From positions 1-25,422 of the IMG/VR virus record IMGVR_UViG_3300021964_000471: 25,422 bases of DNA; one strand, given 5' to 3'. This DNA is from a virus. The notes below the pieces were generated by a model, which was not told the origin of the DNA, made no database searches, and was given only the letters and a program-made list of their open reading frames with translations. A program made the translations under genes and the position numbers. Positions 4,436-6,407 of this stretch are shown here, piece by piece. Each line of letters opens with the position of its first letter. Position 1 is the stretch's first letter.

Positions 4436-5306
4436 CTGTTAAGTATACCTGTTTTATCCTTTGCCGTCTACTTATTTGGTAAATGATTTCATCGCGGTCT
4501 TGTTCTTCAATCAATTGTGCTACAGGAAAACGCAAAGGCAATATACGCGGATGTTCGAATTCATTGTAGCCTCTAGCTTCGAACCAATCTCTGTTCCATT
4601 CGAAATAGGTTCTCATGGTGTTGCATTTTTTTACAACATCAGTTTCTTCGTAAAATCTTGCTACAAAATCAGCACTATAGTGTTGCCAAGGTTTGAATCC
4701 CATATCACTTGGATATTCTTTATCCAATGCAAGATCTTCCAGTGTTTTACCTATTTCACAGTAGCTTAAACAAAGACTTCCCCAAGGTGGTGTCATTGTG
4801 CCATGCTCTTTGAGCATGCGATCTGTAAGTAAATGAGTTTTAGGTAATCCCCAGCGTGTTACCACAAAACGTGGATTTTGACTTTCGCTTTTTGCTGTTT
4901 CTACAGCATGAACATATACATTTATGTTTGCCAACGCTTGTTGTACATGCAAGGGTGCTGTAACAAAAAACTCACTTGTTTGATTGTCCAACGTACCATG
5001 TTGTTCTTCAAAAATTGTGTGGACAGTGTTTAACCAGTCTTGATCTGTTGCATCACTGGGCAATGGAATTATACGTTGATGTGTGTTTACAGTTTCAACA
5101 GCATCTAAAAGTTTTTTAACACTATGAGCTAGCTCACTGCGTTTACTAACCCAACCATAAAAACGATCTGGATGGTCGATAGGATACTGCATTCCTGCAA
5201 CCAGTCTGTCGGTCCACTTTTTACCAAGTTCTGTGTCATGGACCTTGTACCGCAATGTAAAATCGCTGTCCTGTTCTGGGAATCCTAAAGCTATGTTAAC
5301 AATCAT
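4428..5306 (-). CDS. Unrecognised 292-residue protein coupled to UvsW
   Basis: I do not recognise this protein. It is soluble, tryptophan- and histidine-rich, with conserved-looking patches FVVTRWGLPKTHLLTDRM and TMTPPWGSLCLSYCEIGKTL near the middle, followed by a helical acidic C-terminus that overlaps the UvsW start by eight bases. The start, ATG at 5306, is odd. It lies eight bases after the T-run of a strong terminator, and no Shine-Dalgarno sequence precedes it (the leader is a nine-base T-run and AT-rich). No sigma70 or late promoter is evident between it and the terminator. Expression therefore probably depends on read-through or antitermination. A more internal start (for example at an internal ATG near residue 39) cannot be excluded. 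Confidence 0.75.
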   Translation of the reverse strand: MIVNIALGFPEQDSDFTLRYKVHDTELGKKWTDRLVAGMQYPIDHPDRFYGWVSKRSELAHSVKKLLDAVETVNTHQRIIPLPSDATDQDWLNTVHTIFEEQHGTLDNQTSEFFVTAPLHVQQALANINVYVHAVETAKSESQNPRFVVTRWGLPKTHLLTDRMLKEHGTMTPPWGSLCLSYCEIGKTLEDLALDKEYPSDMGFKPWQHYSADFVARFYEETDVVKKCNTMRTYFEWNRDWFEARGYNEFEHPRILPLRFPVAQLIEEQDRDEIIYQISRRQRIKQVYLTDA

Positions 5307-5325
5307 AATTTAATAAAAAAAAACA

Positions 5326-5345
5326 GGCACCCCCGAAAGGGTGCC
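5326..5345 (-). terminator. Rho-independent terminator after the AAA ATPase gene
   Basis: On the minus strand the stem GGCACCC/GGGTGCC (7 bp, arms 5339-5345 and 5326-5332, six-base loop) is followed after two bases by nine consecutive T residues (positions 5323-5315). This is a textbook intrinsic terminator for the transcript coming from 6407. It lies immediately before the ATG of the next gene at 5306. Confidence 0.9.
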
Positions 5346-5350
5346 CAAAG

Positions 5351-5395
5351 TGTTCAAGTTATCGAGGAGCTAGACAGTGAGTGATAACTTGAACA
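5351..5395 (-). repeat. 13-bp perfect inverted repeat, long RNA hairpin after a stop codon
   Basis: Arms TGTTCAAGTTATC (5351-5363) and GATAACTTGAACA (5383-5395) are perfectly complementary around a 19-base loop. The hairpin begins two bases after the TAA of the ATPase gene and precedes the terminator by only five bases. It lacks a T-run, so it is not itself a terminator. A role in 3'-end stability, antitermination or as a processed RNA is possible. Confidence 0.85.
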
Positions 5396-5396
5396 A

Positions 5397-6407
5397 TTAC
5401 AGTCGACGCATGCAAGTACTTTCAGCAAGTTCTTTCCAGTTGTCGGCCGATACGCGAGTTAAATCTGCGATCTTTAAAGCCATCCGCAGACTCATTTCAC
5501 GTAACCTGTTTTGATTCTTATCCATAAAGTCAAGAATCTCTTCGCCCTGTTCTGGGCTAAGTTTATAATCTTTAAACAACTCACCTTTTCGGAAAATTTG
5601 TTTAATGCGTAAATAACAATCTCGCATGGTATCCATTGTTAGATCAAGATAGTGACAACGGCTTTGTAATGCATCCAAGTGATCTTTGAGTTTTTTGCTT
5701 TTGATATGTTCAAACTTAAGATTTGTAATAAAGATCACACTACCATTGAAATCAAAACTGCTTGGAATACCTTCGCTACGCAATTTGCTACTGTCAGCGT
5801 TCCAGTAGATCCTACGACGCTTGCCTGAATCCAGTGCGGCTTTTAAAATATTTAAGCTTAGATCATCAAGCAAGATACTATCACAGTCATCAAATACCAA
5901 TACATGATTGCGATCACTGTGCTTGTACAATGTTGCATATAACCCAACTGGAGTCATAGCACCTTTTACAACTTCATACTTGGTGTTATTGCCGCCGATA
6001 CGATCAAAAATGCTGCTTTTCTCAAGCTCGTATTCCACGCCGTAACTTTTACCAACACCTGGAGGACCTGTCACAATCATGGCTCGGACATCTCCGTTGA
6101 TAGCCGCACGAGTCATATCGTGCAAAATATCAAATCTCTTGCCAATGCGTTCCATGACTTCTTCGTCTGACTCGGTTTTGGCTTTGAAAGCAACAATGCT
6201 TTCTTTCATTTTTCCTCCAGTAAATTCAATACAGTTGGCACTGTCAATACTTACACGAATTTTCTCTGGGCCCTCAAAAGAACCAGGATTCTTTACTGTA
6301 ATGAATTGACCATTTTTACCACGAGTCAATGGACGCACCATTTCAAACACTTGATCTTTGATTGCGGTATTTCTATACTCGCCTTTTTTAATTAGTACAG
6401 TATTCAT
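5397..6407 (-). CDS. AAA-family ATPase
   Basis: This is a 336-residue AAA ATPase. Walker A is GPPGVGKS at residues 114-121, Walker B is VLVFDDCD at 169-176, sensor 1 is FITN at 226-229, and a possible arginine finger is R250 in LQSRCHYLDL. About 100 N-terminal residues precede the ATPase core and lack a recognised domain. Similar stand-alone AAA proteins occur in marine T4-like phages, without a proven role as far as I know; loading or remodelling of a DNA-bound partner is a reasonable guess. It is not the gp44 clamp loader by layout. The start ATG at 6407 has AAAAGGAAG about nine bases upstream. The gene is a one-gene transcription unit with its own promoter (6439-6467) and terminator (5326-5345). 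Confidence 0.88.
   Translation of the reverse strand: MNTVLIKKGEYRNTAIKDQVFEMVRPLTRGKNGQFITVKNPGSFEGPEKIRVSIDSANCIEFTGGKMKESIVAFKAKTESDEEVMERIGKRFDILHDMTRAAINGDVRAMIVTGPPGVGKSYGVEYELEKSSIFDRIGGNNTKYEVVKGAMTPVGLYATLYKHSDRNHVLVFDDCDSILLDDLSLNILKAALDSGKRRRIYWNADSSKLRSEGIPSSFDFNGSVIFITNLKFEHIKSKKLKDHLDALQSRCHYLDLTMDTMRDCYLRIKQIFRKGELFKDYKLSPEQGEEILDFMDKNQNRLREMSLRMALKIADLTRVSADNWKELAESTCMRRL

Follow-up and report, generated by a model that had tools for sequence, protein, structure and literature searches.

Known and proposed self-targeting RNAs encoded at mRNA 3' ends

The closest described counterparts of the RNA element analyzed here are OppZ and CarZ, two autoregulatory sRNAs derived from 3' UTRs in Vibrio cholerae (PMC7398697). 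In these systems, as is proposed here from sequence, a transcript gives rise at its 3' end to an RNA that pairs with this same transcript and inhibits its translation. OppZ and CarZ are bacterial, stem from operons and are made by RNase E, and OppZ requires Hfq (PMC7398697), whereas the present element is defined by comparative sequence analysis, is phage-encoded, follows a single-gene unit in the window, usually carries its seed in the loop of a variable stem and occurs in a wide phage group. A second parallel is found in icaR of Staphylococcus aureus, for which pairing between the 3' UTR and the 5' UTR was described (PMC3868564). A pyrimidine-rich 3'-UTR motif, UCCCCUG in icaR, faces the Shine-Dalgarno region of the same mRNA, and complementarity and co-variation place a 3'-UTR motif against the Shine-Dalgarno sequence of the same mRNA at the phage loci as well. 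The icaR 3' UTR is long and an RNase III substrate (PMC3868564), in contrast to the compact hairpin-terminator module of about 80 nt described below, whose 28 different seeds co-vary with their target. Phage-encoded sRNAs have been reviewed (PMC12197685), and the element resembles them as a candidate phage-encoded regulatory RNA, several of the reviewed examples being base-pairing. A text search of that review returned no autoregulation or feedback, and neither a self-targeting phage RNA from a 3' UTR nor a description of the element was found in the open-paper literature. The analysis started from a 25.4-kb virus record, termed the window, in which a hairpin follows an ATPase gene. Very probably, the 3' end of the ATPase mRNA provides an antisense RNA directed against that same mRNA, with the hairpin as the part that bears the seed; this RNA would repress translation of the ATPase.

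The ATPase transcription unit and its 3' end

The ATPase gene, the hairpin, a terminator and the next gene are all located on the minus strand of the window. The ATPase gene (6407-5397) belongs to phrog_1250, the T4 NrdC.10 family (E 1e-86), and would be both the regulated gene and the parent transcript. It is preceded by a sigma70-like promoter at 6467-6439 (TTGACA, 17 nt, TATTAT; score 11/12), which lies 31 nt before the ATG. The gene therefore looks like a single-gene unit that extends from 6467 to 5315 by its predicted boundaries, as its own promoter is found approximately 30 nt ahead of the start. This arrangement is general among the relatives: a sigma70-like promoter about 30 nt upstream of the ATPase start was detected in 79 of 80 leader classes, compared to 3/80 for in-gene controls, and at a score of at least 10/12 the numbers were 78/80 and 0/80.

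One base after the ATPase stop codon TAA (5399-5397), a hairpin spans positions 5395-5351, with a perfect 13-bp stem formed by 5395-5383 and 5363-5351 and a 19-nt loop at 5382-5364 (ACUCACUGUCUAGCUCCUC). The intrinsic terminator that follows (5347-5315, minus strand) consists of a stem at 5347-5324 with 10 pairs, six of them G-C, and a U9 tract at 5323-5315; it marks the predicted 3' end of both the ATPase transcript and the proposed sRNA. A 97-nt piece comprising hairpin and terminator folds at -31.8 kcal/mol versus -15.5 +/- 2.7 kcal/mol for shuffled sequences (z -6.1; 0 of 200 shuffles as stable), and both structures are real. A sequence-only reading of the stretch had described this stem, its 19-base loop, the terminator and an ATG eight bases further on, all of which held; its placement of the stem directly after the ATPase stop was also right, with a distance of one base rather than two. 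As for 3'-UTR-derived autoregulatory sRNAs of the OppZ/CarZ kind, the element is thus predicted to lie at the 3' end of its parent transcript, with which it would have the terminator in common.

No Rfam family reached its gathering threshold for the element (the best was sbrA, with 24.8 bits against the required 45), a tRNA search detected none and a nucleotide search of a phage collection gave no match. A possible gene on the antisense strand over the hairpin was dropped after inspection, as no such start is kept in relatives.

Conservation of the hairpin-terminator element

Relatives were drawn from viral contigs with the ATPase protein as query, which yielded approximately 140 related phage loci (143 counted). 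In most of them a hairpin followed by a terminator is found 3' of the ATPase gene in the same architecture. The stem sequence varies from phage to phage with compensatory changes, so that a search for the exact stem in viral contigs gave no match. The loop, in contrast to the stem, keeps one of a few words, namely GUCUAGCUCCU (type A, to which the window belongs), GGUUGGCUCCG (type B) or other GCUCC-like words. When a gapped loop pattern was used as query, many of the loci obtained were chance matches, and only those with hairpin and terminator were retained.

An alignment of 13 type A sequences was used to assess the structure. All stem cells (100%) are paired and 11 of the 17 pairs show double changes, seven among the 10 hairpin pairs and four among the seven terminator pairs; the covariation score of 0.529 compares with 0.239 for shuffled alignments and a maximum of 0.115 for slid structures. 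Conservation of the stem in relatives, whose lack the sequence-only reading had named as evidence against its proposal, is thereby verified. A covariance model built from the 13 sequences detects the element in the majority of 41 other loci and gave one strong match on each of 12 large phage contigs, and the element is present in a single copy per genome.

The seed comprises 7-12 nt and usually resides in the loop or in the stretch just 5' of the hairpin. In 71 of the 143 loci the first terminator is located more than 75 nt past the ATPase stop, up to about 2.4 kb away with extra genes in between. A seed of at least 8 nt is still present in 64 of these 71 loci, which indicates that the element goes with the end of the transcript rather than with the stop codon.

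The loop is complementary to the ATPase ribosome site

The loop seed of the window, GUCUAGCUCCUC (5375-5364, minus strand), is complementary to the Shine-Dalgarno sequence and spacer of the ATPase gene, GGAAGCUAGAC (6420-6410, minus strand). The partners GUCUAGCU and AGCUAGAC can form 8 bp, to which 3 bp are added across a 1-nt bulge, with a duplex energy of -17.4 kcal/mol; this match is weaker than in many relatives, and of 2,000 random 35-mers taken from the window strand, 16 reach the same pairing strength. The seed is thus directed against the translation start region of its own transcript, as are those of the OppZ/CarZ kind. Type B loops read GGUUGGCUCC and face the site GGAGCCAACC-AUG. 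Further pairs are GAAUGCUCCU with AGGAGCAUUC (locus L002), GUUAGCUCCU with AGGAGCUAAC (L080), UUGAACUCC with GGAGUUCAA (L036) and AUACUCCGUUA with UAACGGAGUAU (L023), the last with its seed between stop codon and hairpin. In L074 and L078, where UUUCUAGCCC faces GGGCUAGAAA, the Shine-Dalgarno sequence has changed from GGAGC to GGGGC and the loop has changed to match.

To quantify the complementarity, the first terminator after the ATPase gene was located and the 75 nt ahead of it were taken as the test region, a choice made blind to complementarity. An exact run of 8-11 nt to the locus' own ribosome region was found in 107 of 143 loci with 28 different seeds, counts that are not independent because the loci are related. 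A short seed match or none at all was seen in some relatives (L015, L021, L022, L219, L222 and L285). The permutation test was restricted to a single member of each of 77 leader classes: own pairs gave a mean longest run of 8.03, compared to 5.63 +/- 0.15 for permuted ones, and none of 5,000 permutations was as high. Runs of at least 8 nt nevertheless occur in 12% of permuted pairs.

Since any CUCC pairs with any GGAG, the comparison was also anchored on that core and only the flanks were scored. On the spacer side, positions d1 to d5 match in 94, 83, 79, 67 and 58% of own pairs versus 72, 33, 62, 40 and 35% of cross-locus pairs. On the ATPase protein tree, 15 double changes at d1-d5 fall on the same branch and keep the pairing, against an expectation of about 4.6 same-branch coincidences whatever their kind; the test is approximate and handles relatedness only roughly. 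Natural compensatory changes in many lineages are difficult to account for without pairing between seed and target. That the hairpin and complementarity arose by chance without function is scarcely credible: CUCC fits every GGAG, and runs of 8 nt or more also turn up in permuted pairs, but neither the permutation result, nor the strong stem covariation, nor the flank and tree test of the spacer-side positions would be expected.

Target preference

All predicted genes of five large relatives and of the window were searched for seed targets. In five of these six genome sequences (G003, G005, G006, G012 and the window) the seed finds its best target at the ATPase ribosome site. In the remaining one, G001, the genes 138520 and 139379 are as good a match to the seed as the ATPase gene, whose start was missed by the simple gene caller; a small regulon is possible in this phage. 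The two genes (contig coordinates; pieces L159) lie about 0.9 kb apart and have AGGAGCUAGA ribosome sites. Self-pairing was also looked for at other genes with a nearby terminator in the searched genomes, and none was found.

The 5' half of the window loop, CUCACUGUCUA (5381-5371, minus strand), is perfectly complementary over 11 nt to the leader of the minus-strand gene 7449-7231. The matching site, UAGACAGUGAG (7469-7459, minus strand), adjoins the Shine-Dalgarno sequence of that gene, with a duplex energy of -18.8 kcal/mol. The gene is the first of the upstream operon, a separate unit with its own promoter-like site, and the match is common to the window and its closest relative L001 (L001:2021-2031). 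This candidate second target was noticed post hoc and is no more than suggestive.

The gene downstream of the terminator

The next gene encodes a protein of 292 aa without family assignment. Its ATG (5306-5304, minus strand) is located eight bases past the U9 tract. In the closest relative, L001, the protein also has 292 aa and aligns from MIV, which supports the start at 5306. No ribosome site and no convincing promoter were detected before 5306 in the window, the best promoter score being 8/12, in agreement with the sequence-only reading. According to that reading, the run of genes from 5306, the uvsW operon, seems to need read-through, antitermination or a hidden promoter. The missing promoter was indeed confirmed for the window, but the difficulty is local: a TTGAC(T/A)...TATACT-like promoter, such as TTTTTTTGACTT...TATACT, scores at least 9/12 in 64 of 82 classes and starts within the U-tract or immediately after it, while the window and L001 have no convincing one. 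As most relatives possess such a promoter, its absence is a peculiarity of these two phages. The 5306 gene may be expressed through leaky termination or from another promoter. The puzzle is real for the window and L001 but separate from the hairpin. A very compact joint is observed in L005, L013, L019 and L030, where the terminator's U-tract also serves as the beginning of the -35 element (TTTTTTTGACTT) in the promoter of the next gene.

Cultured phages and MAGs

The element model gave no convincing match in the cultured phages PA5oct and Acj9. Seed pairing in Acj9, T4, K356, phiA8-29 and ValKK3, all of which are cultured and carry the ATPase gene, was at shuffle level only. The pairing in PA5oct is borderline and suggestive only, as 20 of 300 shuffles were as good and the partner sits in the hairpin arm. 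In this Pseudomonas phage (L151:3820-3862), the homologous gene has a short 3' UTR in which the hairpin arm AUGCUACU matches the gene's own ribosome site. PA5oct is available in culture and its record cites an RNA-seq-based annotation. ATPase relatives were additionally found in a Methylophilaceae MAG and a Porticoccaceae MAG. The two contigs, which are possibly phage contigs, have no visible seed.

Proposed mode of action

The ATPase unit would be transcribed from its own host-type promoter and end at the terminator. The loop would then pair with the Shine-Dalgarno sequence and spacer of the ATPase mRNA and block translation initiation, so that more ATPase mRNA would mean a stronger damping of its translation. 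That pairing over Shine-Dalgarno and spacer should block initiation is the best-supported expectation by analogy with OppZ, CarZ and icaR. From the predicted unit boundaries, the conserved architecture, the complementarity and its co-variation, the single copy and the preference for the ATPase gene, we infer pairing in the cell, repression and the release of the 3' end as a free sRNA of roughly 80 nt. Hfq-type sRNAs are compact and have a terminal terminator, a U-rich stretch behind a hairpin and a long U tail. The element likewise has U-rich sequence behind its hairpin and ends in a long U tail, which would fit Hfq dependence, and owing to this resemblance in size, terminator and U-rich parts its release as a free RNA is likely.

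The most serious alternative is pairing of the icaR kind, in which the ATPase mRNA stays intact, its 3' UTR reaches back to the ribosome site of the same molecule, and no free sRNA arises. Both partner sites are present on one short single-gene transcript in the window, the seed is often only a few nt from the stop codon, where terminating ribosomes could mask it, and all co-variation results are accommodated equally well. Pairing solely in cis is nonetheless considered rather unlikely: the element stays with the terminator even when up to about 2.4 kb of genes intervene, the loop in the window and L001 has a further match, to a leader of another transcription unit, and hairpin, U-rich stretch and U tail resemble an independent sRNA module. 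An sRNA acting in trans is accordingly the mode that we favor, with modest confidence.

The CUCCU in the loop raises the further question of a general anti-Shine-Dalgarno RNA that targets many mRNAs or titrates ribosome sites, AGGAG being the usual ribosome site in these phages and further good targets existing in G001 (two) and in the window (one). Such a role is improbable: bases on the spacer side, beyond the Shine-Dalgarno sequence itself, change in step with the ATPase gene, which also provides the best target in five of the six genome sequences searched. Even less probable is an element for antitermination, processing or mRNA 3'-end protection that serves the uvsW run. A stable hairpin can shield 3' ends, and this one is positioned just before a terminator and a promoterless gene; such functions, however, give no reason for the loop to co-vary with the ribosome site of the gene upstream, and the downstream gene has its own promoter in most relatives. 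Nothing points to the antitermination site that the sequence-only reading had envisaged, nor does the hairpin form part of the uvsW operon to which it was assigned there. It belongs to the upstream ATPase gene, because its loop is the antisense counterpart of the ATPase ribosome-binding site and both have changed together. Among the roles suggested by that reading, the source of a small RNA fits best.

With regard to the self-targeting RNA, a wider reading is put forward tentatively, and we would not yet bet on it as a whole: a large phage family of trans-acting autoregulatory sRNAs, one per genome, would be tied to one conserved ATPase, its seed sequence re-invented many times and gated by terminating ribosomes, and in the window and L001 the RNA would also silence the first gene of the neighbouring operon.

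Significance

Self-silencing by mRNA 3' ends is known from few bacterial cases, and the element described here is conserved across many uncultured phages. The natural compensatory changes between seed and ribosome site amount to a mutational test of the pairing. If the proposal is true, a phage RNA family with a stated target would be at hand and the unexplained NrdC.10-type ATPase would seem to need dosage control. The elements would then also offer compact, re-targetable parts for autoregulated expression.
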